Positions 5,211-21,327 of a stretch of DNA of 21,401 nucleotides are shown piece by piece. Location of the stretch: IMG/VR virus record IMGVR_UViG_3300034013_000906, positions 1 to 21,401 of that record; one strand, written 5' to 3'. Both the position numbers and the translations under genes were made by a program. The notes under the pieces were generated by a model that saw only the letters and a list, made by a program, of their open reading frames with translations, did not search any database and was not told the DNA's origin. Positions within the stretch are counted from its first letter, which is position 1, and each line of letters begins with the position of its first letter. Source of the stretch: a virus.

Positions 5211-5367
5211 AGCGGGCCGGGATTCAGTGGCAGGACTGGCAGACTAAACCGGAACCCGCGGCTGGATCGTAAGCCACTGTGGTAATCCGGGCCGAGGGGA
5301 GCCCGTGCCGCAAGCGCAGATGCGACGGTGAAGCCGAAAGGTGCCTTCTGCGAAGCGGGCCGGGATT
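5211..5367. repeat. 14-bp direct repeat AGCGGGCCGGGATT, two copies 143 bp apart
   Basis: Exact copies lie at 5211-5224 and 5354-5367. The first is part of the long-range stem with AATCC at 5284-5288; the second is the left arm of the hairpin at 5355-5382. Because both copies can pair with CCCGGCCCGC (5373-5382), alternative structures are possible. Confidence 0.8.
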
Positions 5368-5382
5368 GATCACCCGGCCCGC
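5355..5382. other. 10-bp perfect hairpin overlapping the integrase stop codon
   Basis: GCGGGCCGGG (5355-5364) pairs with CCCGGCCCGC (5373-5382) across an 8-base loop that contains the integrase stop codon (5370-5372). No U-run follows on either strand, so it is not a standard terminator; it could be an RNA-processing or mRNA-stability element for the integrase transcript. Confidence 0.6.
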
Positions 5383-6440
5383 GTCAACTTCTCCAGCCAA
5401 GGCCATCCCGCCCACTTATCGCCCGTCGCGCGCAGGTGGGCGTAACGTTGTAGGCTAGACCAGCTGCGGTGGCCGGAGACGCTTGCGGCTTGCGGGATCG
5501 TCCTGCCCATCTCGAACAGGCGCGACACGCCTTCGTGGCGCAAGTCGTGGAAGTGTAGATCCTCGATGGCCAGCACCTTGCAGGCGCGGGTGAAGGCGGC
5601 GCTCACGGCATCGGTCGAGAAGGGGAAGATCCTTGGGTCTGTCTTGGGCATGGCGCGGGCGATGCGCTCGGCTTCGGGGGGCAGATCGACCCAGACGTTG
5701 TTGCCTGCCTTTTCGCCGGGGTGCTTCATGTCGCGGACCAAAACCCGGCCCTCCTCCAGATCGGCCCATGTGATGCGCAGGCACTCCTCAAGGCGGCGGG
5801 TTGAGAACATCGCGAACCCGGCGACCATGTGCATTGGCAGGGCGTTGCGGCGGTGTGACCGCGTGACGAAGACATCCATCAGGCGGTTCATTTCATCTAT
5901 GGTCGGGCGGCGGTCGCGCTTGCCGGATTTGGACACGGCCCCGAGGCGCTTCAGGGCGTCCATGGCCTTCGCCATTTCTGCTGGCTCAAGGCGCATGCCC
6001 CACGCGGTGTTGGCGACCCGGAAAACGGCGGACAGGTGGGACAGGTAGTTCATCACCGTCTGCGGCTTGCGCTCGGCCCCAAGGCGGCTGGCGTAGGCGA
6101 CAATCTCGCGGCTGGTGATCTGTTCGCAGTCCATCCCTGCGATACTGTCGCGCCGGATCGCGTCGAGAACCTGGGCCTTGGTGCGGCCGATCTCTTTGCG
6201 GCTGGCCTTCAGGTATTTGTCGATCGCATCATCCAGCGTCCCCGAAGGGTGCATGGCCGCGTCCAGCGCACCGGGGAGGGCTAGTTCCGCCTCTTTCCGC
6301 TTGGCCCATGAGCGCGCGTCCTTTTCCTTGTCGAAGGTCTGTGCGGTGGTGTAGATCACCCGCCCATTGCGCTTGATCTTGATCTGCGCGGTATAGGCTG
6401 TTGAGCCATCTTTTCGGACGCGTGGGTTGATGGTCGCCAT
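5370..6440 (-). CDS. int: Site-specific tyrosine recombinase (phage integrase)
   Basis: A 356-residue integrase that would insert and excise the phage at its attachment site. The N-terminus is an arm-binding-like domain (MATINPRVRKDGSTAYTAQI), followed by a core-binding helical domain (about 65-165) and the catalytic domain. Visible catalytic residues are Arg in FSTRRLEEC (215/216), Lys239 in DMKHPGEK, His298 and Arg301 in HFHDLRHEG, His324 in SGHRSW and the nucleophile Tyr333 in LQRYAHL. All are present, so the enzyme looks intact. ATG 6440 is the start. The gene is separated from the upstream early operon by a terminator (6641-6675), implying its own promoter in 6441-6640. The stop codon lies inside a perfect hairpin. 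Confidence 0.95.
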   Translation of the reverse strand: MATINPRVRKDGSTAYTAQIKIKRNGRVIYTTAQTFDKEKDARSWAKRKEAELALPGALDAAMHPSGTLDDAIDKYLKASRKEIGRTKAQVLDAIRRDSIAGMDCEQITSREIVAYASRLGAERKPQTVMNYLSHLSAVFRVANTAWGMRLEPAEMAKAMDALKRLGAVSKSGKRDRRPTIDEMNRLMDVFVTRSHRRNALPMHMVAGFAMFSTRRLEECLRITWADLEEGRVLVRDMKHPGEKAGNNVWVDLPPEAERIARAMPKTDPRIFPFSTDAVSAAFTRACKVLAIEDLHFHDLRHEGVSRLFEMGRTIPQAASVSGHRSWSSLQRYAHLRATGDKWAGWPWLEKLTRAG

Positions 6441-13906: not shown

Positions 13907-14184
13907 TCCTCGCCCTCCTTCTTTGTGAAGGATTGGAGCCGCTCAAGGTCCAACGCCAGCAGCTCGTTGCCGTCGATGGGGATCAGGCGGGCGATGCACC
14001 AGCGCACATGGCCCTGCTGACCCTGTATGCGCTTCACCCGATCCAAGCAGGAGGCCATAGACGTGTCGCAGCCCTCTGCCTCCATTACTATTGGGGCTTG
14101 CCCACCCCATTCGGCTATCACGACGTAAGCGCCTTCCTCGCGGCGCGCCCAACGGTCGATTTGCATGATGCGCGGCAAGGTCAT
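13903..14184 (-). CDS. 93-residue hypothetical protein
   Basis: Begins MTLPRIMQIDRWARREEGAY, has a beta-like VVIAEWGGQAPIVMEAEGCD segment and a C-terminal helix ending SFTKKEGEE. It starts four bases inside the end of RecT (ATGA), so it probably depends on RecT translation. Its position directly after the annealing protein suggests a small accessory, but no family is recognised. Confidence 0.6.
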   Translation of the reverse strand: MTLPRIMQIDRWARREEGAYVVIAEWGGQAPIVMEAEGCDTSMASCLDRVKRIQGQQGHVRWCIARLIPIDGNELLALDLERLQSFTKKEGEE

Positions 14185-15083
14185 TCCTCACCCGCCTTTC
14201 GCGCGCAGTCGTAAGAGGCAAGCCAGTCGCCAGCGAGGGCCGGATCAGCATGGTAGGGGCATGATGTGCGCGGCTGACCACCATGCGCCGCGACAATCCC
14301 CTGATCCCATGCGGCCGATCCGGGCGCGCCGTCGTCGGTTACGATGCTGTCGGTCCAGTGGCCCTCGGATGCTTCGTCCCCTGCCTGAACCTCGGCGGCC
14401 TGTTCCGTCGCCTGCGGGGCCTCCTCGCGCGCCTTGGCGGCAAGCGCGGCCATCGGATTCGAGCGGGCCTCTTGCGGGGTCACGTCCCGCATGCCGACGC
14501 TCGTCTCGATTTCCTCCTTTTCGTAGACCCCAAGGATCACGTCAGGGAAGTGACGGCGACACATCGCGCGGACGGAATAGTACCAAAGTTGTTGGTCAGG
14601 GTCGGCCTTCCAGAGCGGCGAGTTCTTGGTCGTGATGGTCCCGATCTCGGGGCCTTCGTATTCGATGCGGTCGCCGTCAGTCGTGTCGCACCACAGCCGC
14701 CACTTGCGCTTGGCCCCTTCGCCCTCAACCTTGCCCTTGATCCGGCCCTTGATTGGCGCGCGCTGCTCGATCACCGCGTGGATCAGCTGCGCCTCGTAGG
14801 CGATCCGGTCATTGACCGAGTAGGACTTGTTCGCCACAGCGAAGGGGTCCATGCGCCAGTTGAGGGCTTGCAGGGACACCGCCAAACATGCGCCGGGTTG
14901 GCCGCGAAGGTGCTTCGGAACTGCCTGCCCCGCCACCGCCATCAGCTTCGAGAACTCCATCACTTGGCCCATGTCCGCGAAGGACAGCCCGCCAACCTGC
15001 GACGAAATCTGCGTCCCGCCCGCGACAGCGAGGTCCGTCCGCGCCGCGATCCGTTCTTCAATGGTGGGGTTCTGCTGGTTCAT
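14181..15083 (-). CDS. RecT-family single-strand annealing protein
   Basis: A 300-residue recombinase. The core carries the RecT pattern: MAVAGQAVPKHLRGQPGACL with AVSLQALNWRMDPFAVANKS, YSVNDRIAYEAQLIHAVIEQ, then QQLWYYSVRAMCRRHFPDVI. RecT anneals complementary single strands after a partner exonuclease resects the ends. The last 100 residues are an acidic, Ala/Gly-rich linker with a C-terminal ASYDCARKAGEE tail. ATG 15083 overlaps the coiled-coil protein stop (ATGA). The RecE-like nuclease two genes upstream is its likely partner, and SSB follows downstream. Confidence 0.9.
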   Translation of the reverse strand: MNQQNPTIEERIAARTDLAVAGGTQISSQVGGLSFADMGQVMEFSKLMAVAGQAVPKHLRGQPGACLAVSLQALNWRMDPFAVANKSYSVNDRIAYEAQLIHAVIEQRAPIKGRIKGKVEGEGAKRKWRLWCDTTDGDRIEYEGPEIGTITTKNSPLWKADPDQQLWYYSVRAMCRRHFPDVILGVYEKEEIETSVGMRDVTPQEARSNPMAALAAKAREEAPQATEQAAEVQAGDEASEGHWTDSIVTDDGAPGSAAWDQGIVAAHGGQPRTSCPYHADPALAGDWLASYDCARKAGEE

Positions 15084-16022: not shown

Positions 16023-16982
16023 TCACGGGGCTTGGCAGGTGGCGTTCATTTCTTCGAGGAGCCTCTCACGGTCCTCTTTGCGGCGGTGGTAGGCCCCGAC
16101 ATGTTCGCCGGGGCCGGGCCAGTGGTTGGAAATCAGGCACTCGGCGATGCGATCCAGCGCGCGCCGATTGCGGAACCTGGCGATGGCCAGTTCCTCGGGG
16201 TCGATGTAGCGAAGGATGGGGTGATGCGGCGGTTCTGAGCATTGTGCGACAATCCCCGTCACGCTGGCGCGCTCGCCGAACAGGCGTTCAAGCCCTTCGT
16301 CGCCAAGCGCGATCTGCATGTCGTAGCCGCCCTTGTCGATATTCCGATCCACCAAGGCGGCGTTGAACGGATTGCCCCGCGCGGCCATGCGCTTGTAGTC
16401 GATCACGCTGGTCGACAGGCTGATCACGTCGGGGCGAGACAGAACCCAGATCCCGGTGCGCTCGTCTTGCCAAGCCAAGGTTACTTCCGGCAGGCCCTTG
16501 AGGACAGCCGCAGCGGCGACGTCGCGCTCAAGGACCGCTCCCATGAGGCAAATCTCATCGAATTCCTCCGTGGTCAGCCAATGGCCTTCCTCGGCTTCAA
16601 CGCGCTGCCAGTATTCGACCGACGCGATGGCGGCATCAGTGGCGGTGCCGCGCTCGTAGTTCTCGATCTGCGCCTTCGTGGGCTTGCGCGGCTTGTCCTC
16701 GTCGTGGACGTTGAACCCCTCAAGAACCCGCATGGGGCCACCCTCGACATAGAGGGCCATCGCCACACCAAGGCGCAGGGCGTCGGTCTCTTTCTTCTCG
16801 AAGCGCTCCGGGTTAATCCGATGGAAGGCAAATACGTCCGCCGGAGTTTGAAGCTCCATAGTCCTGAGGACGCCGGACGTTACGCTAAAACCGTCGCAGG
16901 GCTGGCTGTGGTGCTGCGAGAGCGGGATGCGATACAGACCGGGCTGGCTGATCTTCTCGCCGTCGGAGAGGGTGCGGATCAT
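16023..16982 (-). CDS. RecE-like (exonuclease VIII type) PDDEXK nuclease
   Basis: A 319-residue protein. GLYRIPLSQHHSQPCDG and SGVLRTMELQTPADVFAFH match the N-terminal part of RecE-type nuclease domains. Likely catalytic residues are Glu166 (LPEVTLAW), Asp185 (LSRPDVISL), Asp195 and Lys197 (VIDYKRM), and the GYDMQ motif (Tyr220, Gln223). The helix that in relatives carries a His (pattern G-x-x-x-H) reads RLGVAMALYVEG here with Ala in that place, so activity may differ. It would resect double-strand ends for RecT. ATG 16982 overlaps the stop of a 37-residue ORF; the longer in-frame ORF runs into that ORF. Confidence 0.83.
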   Translation of the reverse strand: MIRTLSDGEKISQPGLYRIPLSQHHSQPCDGFSVTSGVLRTMELQTPADVFAFHRINPERFEKKETDALRLGVAMALYVEGGPMRVLEGFNVHDEDKPRKPTKAQIENYERGTATDAAIASVEYWQRVEAEEGHWLTTEEFDEICLMGAVLERDVAAAAVLKGLPEVTLAWQDERTGIWVLSRPDVISLSTSVIDYKRMAARGNPFNAALVDRNIDKGGYDMQIALGDEGLERLFGERASVTGIVAQCSEPPHHPILRYIDPEELAIARFRNRRALDRIAECLISNHWPGPGEHVGAYHRRKEDRERLLEEMNATCQAP

Positions 16983-17092
16983 TGCGCCACCTCCGCCGCC
17001 GCATGAGCGGTCCAAGCCGCCTCGGCCATCACGCCAATAACGGGGCCAGCAACGGCGCAAAGCGCCAGGGCAAAGAAGTGCTTACGCATCAT
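16979..17092 (-). CDS. 37-residue small membrane/signal-like protein
   Basis: MMRKHFFALALCAVAGPVIG, then VMAEAAWTAHAAAEVAQ. The basic start plus hydrophobic core (residues 6-21) predicts a membrane segment or signal peptide. It overlaps the end of the 113-residue gene at its start and the RecE-like start at its stop (ATGA). Too short to classify. Confidence 0.55.
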   Translation of the reverse strand: MMRKHFFALALCAVAGPVIGVMAEAAWTAHAAAEVAQ

Positions 17093-17423
17093 GGGGCCGC
17101 CCCTTGTGGCTGTGTTTGGTGTAGGCGGGCGGCTCACCGCGCGTAACCTTGTCGCAGAGCAGATCGACCGCGCGGGCGCTGTGGTTGAGGCCCGCTAGCT
17201 GCAAGACGATGCGGCCATCGGCAGACACCGCCCATGCCCGGAAGCGGCGCAGGGCGCTGTCGACCCGATCGGTGTCCTTTGCCACCCGCGCCTTGCGGAC
17301 CTCATGGGCGGCTTCGTTCACCGCCGTCAGGGCCACAGCCGCCCAAAGCTGACGCATGGACTCTGCCTCAAAGCGCAATCCTGCGCGCCAGTCAGGGGTG
17401 CGCTCGGAAATGGCGGGCATCAT
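17082..17423 (-). CDS. 113-residue hypothetical protein
   Basis: Begins MMPAISERTPDWRAGLRFEA with helical sequence (LWAAVALTAVNEAAHEVRKA, VDSALRRFRAWAVSADGRIV) and a basic tail (AYTKHSHKGRPHDA). Two ATGs (17423, 17420) overlap the upstream stop. The pattern resembles small phage early proteins seen next to recombination genes, but no function is known. Confidence 0.65.
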   Translation of the reverse strand: MMPAISERTPDWRAGLRFEAESMRQLWAAVALTAVNEAAHEVRKARVAKDTDRVDSALRRFRAWAVSADGRIVLQLAGLNHSARAVDLLCDKVTRGEPPAYTKHSHKGRPHDA

Positions 17424-17860
17424 GCGGCACCGCCTTCAAGCTGCGCCTTGATGGCATTGGTGCGCTGTGCAAGAGCTTCATGGTGGATTTGGCAAAGGCC
17501 AACTTCCGGCAGCGGCAACAGGCGACCATTGGGGTCGAGGCCGTAGCGCAGGTTCAGTTGCCGCGCATAGGCAATGGTCTCACGGACGTTCTCTGTCGGG
17601 TCGAGGTCGTCAGCGCAGACAATTGCCCCGTGGACTGTGCTCATCCAGATCGCGTCAGAGGCTTGCGTGTGGATTTTCACGCGGGCGCTTGGATAGATCA
17701 GCAGGCGCGGGAAGGTCATAGATGCGTCAGGCGACCGCATGGCGATCAGGCCAAGAAAAGCCCTGTCGGCTTCGTCCTCGTCGCGGACAACAAGCACGGT
17801 CGGGATGCTGCGATGGATAAGCGCCATCACCCGCTGAAGCAAAGCTTCATGGTCCTTCAT
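17420..17860 (-). CDS. 146-residue hypothetical protein downstream of CCUCCUCCC hairpins
   Basis: Begins MKDHEALLQRVMALIHRSIP, with TVLVVRDEDEADRAFLGLIA, a beta-like RLLIYPSARVKIHT and a C-terminal helix. ATG 17860 is preferred to the upstream start because AAAGGAGAG lies six bases before it, and because the sequence before that is the two-hairpin element, which is untranslated. The leader therefore contains loops complementary to its own ribosome-binding site, so its translation may be controlled by this element. No family is recognised. Confidence 0.7.
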   Translation of the reverse strand: MKDHEALLQRVMALIHRSIPTVLVVRDEDEADRAFLGLIAMRSPDASMTFPRLLIYPSARVKIHTQASDAIWMSTVHGAIVCADDLDPTENVRETIAYARQLNLRYGLDPNGRLLPLPEVGLCQIHHEALAQRTNAIKAQLEGGAA

Positions 17861-17880
17861 CGTTCTCTCCTTTGGTGGGT

Positions 17881-17947
17881 GCTCCATCCGGGCCGGGAGG
17901 AGGAAGGCCCGGATGGAGCGGTTGGGCGGCGGGAGGAGGTGCCGCCC
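17881..17947 (-). ncRNA. Tandem hairpins with CCUCCUCCC loops (cuckoo/CcsR-like anti-Shine-Dalgarno RNA)
   Basis: Read on the minus strand: GGGCGGC, loop ACCTCCTCCC, GCCGCCC (17947-17924); linker AACC; then GCTCCATCCGGGCC, loop TTCCTCCTCCC, GGCCCGGATGGAGC (17919-17881). Both stems are perfect (7 and 14 bp) and both loops share CCTCCTCCC, complementary to Shine-Dalgarno sequences. Two hairpins with this loop motif define the cuckoo RNA family of alphaproteobacteria, including the CcsR RNAs of Rhodobacter sphaeroides, which are processed from a transcript downstream of a small ORF. Here too a 55-residue ORF ends at the base of the first hairpin. The next gene begins 20 bases after the second hairpin. 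No U-run follows, so it would have to be processed from the operon RNA. Expression is not shown by the sequence. Confidence 0.72.
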
Positions 17948-18114
17948 TACTTCGGTCGCTGCGCCAGTTCGGCGCGGCGCAGTTCGATCAAGTTGCGGAC
18001 AGCCGGGGTAAGGCCCGGATTTCCGGCATGGTGGATCAGGATTCCGTCCAGTTCGTCGGGATCGGTGATCTTCGGCAGCTTCGCCCGGAGGTCCGCTTCA
18101 CAAAGAGCCAGCAT
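17947..18114 (-). CDS. 55-residue small protein directly before the CCUCCUCCC hairpins
   Basis: Begins MLALCEADLRAKLPKITDPD and ends NLIELRRAELAQRPK. Its stop codon (TAG) touches the first hairpin, and its start overlaps the upstream stop (TGATG). It is basic and helical in its second half. It does not look like DUF1127, the family of the ORF that precedes CcsR RNAs, so only the layout is shared. Unknown function. Confidence 0.65.
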   Translation of the reverse strand: MLALCEADLRAKLPKITDPDELDGILIHHAGNPGLTPAVRNLIELRRAELAQRPK

Positions 18115-18347
18115 CAGCGCCGCCCCTTCATGTGGCCGAGTGTGCCGATGCGTTCCCCGATCCGTTCCGCCTGCGCCGCGCCAAAGCGCGAGGTTAGGAC
18201 ATTGGCCAGCACTTCCGGCAGCTGCTCTGCGCGGAAAGCGCCGAGGGCTTCGGTGAGCATCAGTTCGGCTGTCGAGGGGCTGATGAACAGCGCAGGGTCT
18301 GCGCGCTTGATCGGTTCTGGCTCGGGTTTCCTGAATGGGAACGTCAC
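18114..18347 (-). CDS. 77-residue hypothetical protein (GTG start)
   Basis: VTFPFRKPEPEPIKRADPAL begins it; then a long Ala/Glu-rich helix (LMLTEALGAFRAEQLPEVLA, SRFGAAQAERIGERIGTLG) and a basic end MKGRR. GTG 18347 overlaps the stop of the upstream gene (GTGA) and has GGAGG seven bases before it, which fits better than the longer in-frame ORF inside its neighbour. No family recognised. Confidence 0.6.
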   Translation of the reverse strand: MTFPFRKPEPEPIKRADPALFISPSTAELMLTEALGAFRAEQLPEVLANVLTSRFGAAQAERIGERIGTLGHMKGRR

Positions 18348-18520
18348 TTCACGGCCTCCATCGTGTTCGGGTCCAGTTGCGCGCCGGGACGCCAGCCAGT
18401 GCCGTTGCAGGCATCGCAGGGGGCCGAGGTCCATCCGGTGTAGCTTTGCGCCGATGGTTCCCGGTAGTGGCCCTTGCCGTGGCAGGTCCGGCAGAAGTCG
18501 TCGGGGTTGTAGAGGGTCAC
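18344..18520 (-). CDS. 58-residue DnaJ-type zinc-finger-like protein (GTG start)
   Basis: VTLYNPDDFCRTCHGKGHYR begins it, followed by CDACNGTGWRPG. Two CxxCxGxG-type knuckles (CRTCHGKG and CDACNGTG) are the repeat found in DnaJ-type Cys-rich domains and in many small phage proteins. One zinc ion bound by four Cys is likely. GTG 18520 is chosen because GAGGG is eight bases upstream, and the N-terminal extension of the longer ORF is not domain-like. Possible chaperone, RNA or DNA contact; unknown. Confidence 0.7.
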   Translation of the reverse strand: MTLYNPDDFCRTCHGKGHYREPSAQSYTGWTSAPCDACNGTGWRPGAQLDPNTMEAVK

Positions 18521-20892: not shown

Positions 20893-21327
20893 ATGGCCCA
20901 CAATCCAGACAGCATGATGATCCGAGCCCACATGGCCCGCCTTGTCCGAGAAGCGGGAGGCGTAGAGGCCGCCGCCGCGCTGATCAGCGCAGATACGGGC
21001 AATGAAATGTCCAAGGGCACCGTCTCAAAATACAATGCTGGCCTGCTCGAGTGGAAGCTCGTTGAAATCCTTGCTCTTGAGCGAGCAGTAGGCGCCCGGC
21101 CTGTCAGCCGTTGGGTGGCCAATGGCGTCCCTGAAGTCGGCGAGTCCGCCAGCCTCATGGTGGCGGTAGCAGCCGCCGCAAAAGAACACGGTGAAGCCAT
21201 CGCCGCCGTGATCGCCGCCAGCATGGGAACAGGCAGCCTGTCCATCGCCAAGCGAGAACTTCAGGAGGCCAGCGTGGCCCTGCAAAGCCTGACGGCCACG
21301 CTGGCAGGGCTGGAAGCAAGCAAATGA
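20893..21327 (+). CDS. Putative phage regulatory DNA-binding protein
   Basis: A 144-residue protein with an N-terminal helical part that looks like an HTH (MMIRAHMARLVREAGGVEAA, MSKGTVSKYNAGLLEWKLVE, ILALERAVGARPVSRWVANG) and an Ala-rich helical C-terminal half (VAVAAAAKEHGEAIAAVIAA) suited to oligomerisation. ATG 20893 has GAGGA upstream. In position after cro it resembles CII-like or other early regulators; I cannot assign it to a named family with confidence. It is separated from cro by 153 bp that include a small inverted repeat GAAACACGGTTTC (20831-20843) followed by a T-run, possibly a weak terminator or operator. Confidence 0.7.
   Translation: MAHNPDSMMIRAHMARLVREAGGVEAAAALISADTGNEMSKGTVSKYNAGLLEWKLVEILALERAVGARPVSRWVANGVPEVGESASLMVAVAAAAKEHGEAIAAVIAASMGTGSLSIAKRELQEASVALQSLTATLAGLEASK

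Follow-up and report, generated by a model that had tools for sequence, protein, structure and literature searches.

The window, the whole stretch of DNA analysed here, comprises the 21,401 bases of an IMG/VR record that derives from a temperate phage. Phage tail genes occupy its left side, and a leftward operon encodes HNH, a DUF4942 methyltransferase, RecT, a phrog_1376 protein and Exonuclease VIII (Exo VIII), with an HTH repressor further right. The phage host is probably a member of the Rhodobacteraceae, judging by sequence: the only named relatives of Exo VIII found in genome contigs lie in Rhodobacteraceae contigs, at 47-48% identity. Within the operon, two hairpins are located upstream of the Exo VIII and RecT genes, between a 55-aa and a 146-aa ORF (ORF55 and ORF146). 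The relevant features are as follows.

5370-6440, minus strand: tyrosine integrase
14181..15083, minus strand: RecT single-strand annealing protein, same operon
16023..16982, minus strand: Exonuclease VIII (RecE-like, DUF3799), with Rhodobacteraceae relatives
17082..17423, minus strand: DUF6280 protein, 113 aa, overlapping the ORF146 stop at 17420-17423
17420..17860, minus strand: ORF146, downstream of the hairpins, with the Shine-Dalgarno sequence (SD) AAAGGAG; no known family
17881..17919, minus strand: hairpin 2, 14-bp perfect stem GCTCCATCCGGGCC/GGCCCGGATGGAGC, loop TTCCTCCTCCC
17924..17947, minus strand: hairpin 1, 7-bp perfect stem GGGCGGC/GCCGCCC, loop ACCTCCTCCC
17947..18114, minus strand: ORF55, upstream of the hairpins; no Pfam or PHROGs match, and not DUF1127
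18114..18434, minus strand: 106-aa ORF, same operon, upstream of ORF55; no known family

Searches of viral contigs, Rhodobacteraceae genomes, phages and plasmids returned no convincing relatives of the 146-aa, DUF6280 and 106-aa proteins. Residues 257-295 of RecT, at its C-terminus, match ribosome modulation factor RMF (PF04957) at E 4.8e-5, marginally below the cut-off of that family; an RMF-like tail on an annealing protein is an unusual fusion.

Architecture of the hairpin pair

Neighboring genes of the operon overlap, as seen where the ORF55 start meets the stop of the 106-aa ORF at 18114 (TGATG) and where the phrog_1376 and RecT genes share 15080-15083. Among them, the 86 nt between ORF55 and ORF146 (17861-17946) form the only sizeable gap, which is mostly filled by both hairpins. 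On the minus strand the order is TAG-GGCGGC-ACCTCCTCCC-GCCGCCC-AACC-GCTCCATCCGGGCC-TTCCTCCTCCC-GGCCCGGATGGAGC-(20 nt)-ATG. The G of the ORF55 stop codon is thus the first base of hairpin 1, 4 nt separate the two hairpins, and the ATG of ORF146 follows 20 nt past hairpin 2, with its SD AAAGGAG within those approximately 20 nt. An earlier note on this DNA had described adjacent perfect minus-strand hairpins of 7 and 14 bp with motif-bearing loops, placed after the stop of a 55-residue ORF and 20 bases before the next start; both the hairpins and their placement are present in the sequence. The motif CCTCCTCCC is found in both loops and occurs only twice in the whole record, each time at this pair, and the two hairpins have one 9-nt loop sequence in common. 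No other perfect hairpin in the window is as long as hairpin 2. Inspection of the sequence 3′ of it revealed no U-tract; with no terminator, any transcript of the operon would include the hairpins.

The unit has a predicted folding energy of -42.5 kcal/mol alone and -49.6 kcal/mol with its flanks, compared with -35.5 +/- 3.5 kcal/mol for shuffled sequences (z -4.1). Among 1000 equally long sequences generated by an order-1 Markov model, CCTCCTCCC in the loop of a stem of at least 7 bp appeared approximately 0.001 times per sequence. Since even one such hairpin arises so rarely, two adjacent ones are not a product of chance. In the predicted minimum-free-energy fold, both hairpins are closed, both loops are fully unpaired and the SD of ORF146 lies outside.

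Relation to the cuckoo/CcsR RNAs

Cuckoo/CcsR RNAs are bacterial stress and nutrient regulators; the traits of a CcsR/CIN1 locus include processing by RNase E with CcaF1 and a stress (RpoH) promoter. Of 149 Rhodobacteraceae genomes sampled, 106 contain tandem CCTCCTCCC motifs, which often form a single clustered array in each genome; in two of the host loci examined, a DUF1127-like protein is encoded directly upstream. This is the CIN1 layout known for CcsR (PMC10253847). A covariance model, R1, was built from 31 host Rhodobacteraceae CcsR-type units only; in their alignment the loops are invariant, and compensatory change affects 14 of the 15 consensus pairs. R1 scores the hairpin pair at 34.7 bits (E 1.4e-5, with E-values from a short calibration), while the next best match in the window reaches 14.6 bits. 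The Rfam model ar14 (RF02344) aligns both anti-SD (aSD) hairpins at 37.9 bits, below its gathering score of 58.8; host units from ten Rhodobacteraceae loci obtain 34-56 bits and likewise stay below it. The window is not among the matches of Rfam CcsR1 (RF02791, gathering score 65.3 bits) at E <= 10, and no Rfam model matches the window at its gathering threshold.

The cuckoo family definition (Reinkensmeier and Giegerich 2015), as far as it is relayed in PMC10746234 and PMC3927594, calls for two to four adjacent hairpins, an unpaired CCUCCUCCC in every hairpin loop, an alphaproteobacterial origin and expression as a small RNA. The window has two such hairpins, each with this motif unpaired in its loop, and the alphaproteobacterial origin is indicated indirectly, by the Exo VIII relatives. 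The further trait of constant loops with compensatory stem changes, in the same relayed form, was observed in the host units and in one phage group. At the level of sequence, the pair thus has the structure and loop motif of the cuckoo family, but it stays under the Rfam thresholds and lacks the features specific to CIN1 loci, there being no DUF1127 upstream and no terminator after the unit. A profile search found no DUF1127 gene (PF06568, CcaF1-like) anywhere in the record. The family resemblance asserted in the earlier note is borne out by the match to a host-only model, by an ar14 score like that of true host units and by similar units in viral sequences. Of the checks it had proposed, the covariance search gave a match with R1, a score below the ar14 cut-off and no RF02791 match at E <= 10; the comparison with host CcsR loci and other phages yielded a host-model match and at least 60 viral loci, and in the window neither DUF1127 nor a terminator.

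Compared with known systems, the window pair shares with CcsR1-4 of Rhodobacter sphaeroides and the CIN1 arrays two adjacent hairpins with CCUCCUCCC loops, a unit of approximately 65-75 nt, variable stems and a small upstream ORF. It differs from them in being one unit rather than an array, in having a non-DUF1127 ORF upstream and no final terminator, and in the start of the next phage gene 20 nt downstream. The loop motif is identical in ar14/NfeR1 of the Rhizobiales; NfeR1, however, stands alone as a gene under a promoter of its own and has three aSD hairpins (PMC10746234), whereas the window has two hairpins inside an operon.

The genome of Pseudooceanicola endophyticus (G001), which holds host locus L131, has five dispersed single CcsR-like units (L132, L134, L136, L146 and L147) besides its main array. 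They are approximately 82-94% alike over 80-300 bases and have unrelated flanks, which suggests, as judged from these five copies, that the unit itself spreads within genomes.

Hairpin pairs in other viral sequences

Searching IMG/VR for pairs of the motif with a spacing of 15-45 nt returned at least 119 stretches. Many of the raw pattern matches were proline-rich coding repeats containing CCTCCTCCC, which were removed by the stems and the model score. R1 reached 30 bits or more in 41 of the 94 loci searched, with a gap down to the next at 25 bits, and two further scans yielded another 22 loci, all scoring at least 37 bits. In all, at least 60 further IMG/VR loci have R1 scores of at least 30 bits and fall into about two dozen sequence groups, as grouped by eye. 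Two loci, L112 and L199, were rejected as phage units: they carry DUF1127 and are CIN1 loci of the host that lie within prophage contigs; some other viral loci may therefore also be host flanks. A test of the window and 20 further records for a DUF1127 gene was positive only for L112.

In the L015 group, stems change in a compensatory manner while loops remain constant, with 21 double-change cells against 8.9 in shuffles and a covariation of 0.269 against 0.141. As the motif was the route to nearly all phage loci, their loop constancy is partly due to selection. The orthologous leaders L179-L184 were found through their protein and not the motif; their tandem hairpins are kept, and loop 2 is changed in L180 and L184. 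In L179-L183, L037, L062 and L080, the tandem hairpins lie shortly past promoter-like sequences (TTGACA-type boxes in several) and upstream of one common small MQT... protein.

A search of INPHARED with the region or the whole window gave no match. Of the isolated phages examined, five Paracoccus phages, RcapMu and Sinorhizobium PBC5 (seven in all, the last in its first 50 kb) contain no clear unit. In Rhodobacter phage RcapNL, one lone CCTCCTCCC hairpin lies between gp52 and gp53 (L192, 32718-32759), and a GCGGCGG hairpin that lacks the motif comes after it. No report of phage-borne cuckoo/CcsR members was found in the open-access literature searched, a scope outside which the founding cuckoo paper lies.

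Phage and host units differ in form: those of phages have no DUF1127, in the case of the window no U-tract, and often lie sandwiched between the stop of one gene and the start of the following one. An SD-preceded start lies 10-50 nt past the last hairpin in 7 of 18 phage groups but in only 1 of 32 host arrays (Fisher p 0.002), and the same comparison with shifted positions in those phage loci gives p 0.007. All seven distances fall within 23-31 nt; in the window the distance is 20 nt. Such starts occur in these 7 of 18 groups in sense and in none in antisense. The reverse orientation was seen in 0 of 22 loci, three of which came from scans, one of which also demanded AGGAG downstream. Many host arrays run into a T-tract; the window unit does not.

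Genes adjoining the units, from simple gene calls on the viral contigs, include those for Exo VIII (window), RecE/YqaJ (L063), Sak4 (L205) and a Dda-like helicase (L025), so that several units sit within DNA-recombination operons; others are an antirepressor (L036), the major head protein (L104) and QueE (L222). The anatomy of L205 is that of the window, with a 64-aa ORF before the unit and a start codon approximately 40 nt after it. No tandem unit lies near the Exo VIII gene in the Exo VIII relatives examined, which indicates that the unit does not travel with the exonuclease. The presence of similar hairpin pairs in many other viral sequences suggests that phages may be using a gene-silencing device of their hosts.

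Candidate roles of the pair

On balance, the pair probably represents an in-line, phage-borne anti-SD module of the cuckoo/CcsR type, putatively cut from the operon mRNA or acting within it, and working in trans on SDs. The unit would be transcribed together with the recombination genes during phage activity. It may then be cut out by RNase E at its flanks, as host CcsR is, or may act while still in the mRNA. Its two open loops would base-pair with the SDs of host, and perhaps phage, mRNAs and lower their translation in the manner of NfeR1. Trans action is favored by the predicted open loops together with three precedents. The loops of NfeR1 silence ntrB at its SD (PMC10746234), and CcsR1-4 are processed by RNase E out of the ccaF1 3′-UTR (PMC10253847, PMC8625941). 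DicF, from a defective lambdoid prophage of E. coli, is freed by RNases from a polycistronic prophage mRNA (PMC9438474). The proposed layout would parallel this small RNA module inside a phage operon; DicF differs in sequence and in target, as it blocks FtsZ synthesis, and for the window release from the mRNA is a proposal. Mimicry of the 16S 3′ end, lowered host translation and takeover of CcsR regulation, as put forward in the earlier note, are possible.

A broader and rather doubtful extension is that temperate phages of alphaproteobacteria commonly carry such in-line, terminator-less cuckoo units in early operons for takeover. On induction, loops resembling the 16S tail would flood the cell and silence those host mRNAs that depend on an SD, or else would usurp CcsR regulation, and the overlapping, translationally coupled genes of the phage itself would be less affected. 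If phages do carry the units widely in recombination and immunity-region operons, these would be a candidate tool for takeover at the RNA level. The window unit would also offer a natural single-unit system for probing what repeated anti-SD loops do, free of host CcaF1 and multi-copy arrays.

The main rival is an intercistronic element for mRNA stability or processing, which has a modest chance of being the correct account. The hairpins would block exonucleases and set half-lives, or a cleavage point, between two parts of the operon, namely the upstream small ORFs and the 146-aa/DUF6280/Exo/RecT genes; the loop would only recruit RNase E or a CcaF1-like protein and have no mRNA targets. The exact position between a stop codon and the next SD, the one sizeable gap among overlapping genes, the similar sandwich in other phages and the very stable stems (-42.5 kcal/mol for the unit) all speak for such an element. 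However, a pure barrier requires no fixed loop, and here a 9-nt loop is repeated in both hairpins and, in another phage group and the host units, the loop is kept while the stems change.

A translational switch in cis, in which a loop pairs with the SD of ORF146 and shuts the gene off, is unlikely. The earlier note had stated that the sequence ahead of the next start can pair with the loops. This pairing is possible, as the SD is complementary to the loops and 20 nt away, but the predicted energies with AAAGGAGAG near the ORF146 start are weak (-7.5 and -8.8 kcal/mol). Pairing of the loop with 16S (-9.2 kcal/mol) is at least as strong, and several other phage start regions are better partners, the best being that of Exo (-13.8 kcal/mol). 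The switch on gene 17420-17860 itself was not borne out by folding: with the loops open, the hairpins closed and the SD outside, the unconstrained fold of the window equals the fold limited to local pairs (ddG 0.0), the 7- and 14-bp stems stay closed and no long-range alternative appears, within a model that leaves out a loop-SD pseudoknot. Constrained folding and SD-swap controls reject the switch for the window. In most leader-type phages it is also unsupported: among nine such sequences in the SD-swap test, only L184 beats unrelated SD regions, and the alternative pairing in the others is no better than with such regions (18-42% of controls equal).

The L184 leader is the one case that favors regulation in cis. 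At approximately 1905-2003, hairpin 1 contributes its aSD segment to a long alternative helix with the SD region of the first gene (ddG -24 kcal/mol, equaled by 0.5% of controls), and this leader is possibly a true cis switch, as modeled by folding.

Quite improbable is a decoy role, in which the unit mimics host CcsR and titrates CcaF1, RNase E or G-rich antagonists, thereby freeing host mRNAs. The tandem motifs in 106 of 149 Rhodobacteraceae genomes make a host partner pool likely, and the phage-encoded anti-sRNA decoys AsxR and AgvB of E. coli, as they are cited in PMC12559287, set a precedent; few host loop partners are known besides SDs, however. An ordinary transcription terminator, a DNA element or a chance GC-rich inverted repeat would explain the perfect GC-rich stems but is scarcely credible given the absent U-tract, the duplicated 9-nt loop, the expectation of approximately 0.001 per genome for even one such hairpin, the sense-strand placement in other phages and the match to the host RNA model.

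Other perfect inverted repeats in the window lie at 5355-5382 and 21268-21305 (10 and 12 bp, respectively). The former is at the 3′ end of the integrase gene and is perhaps a terminator or an attachment-site feature.
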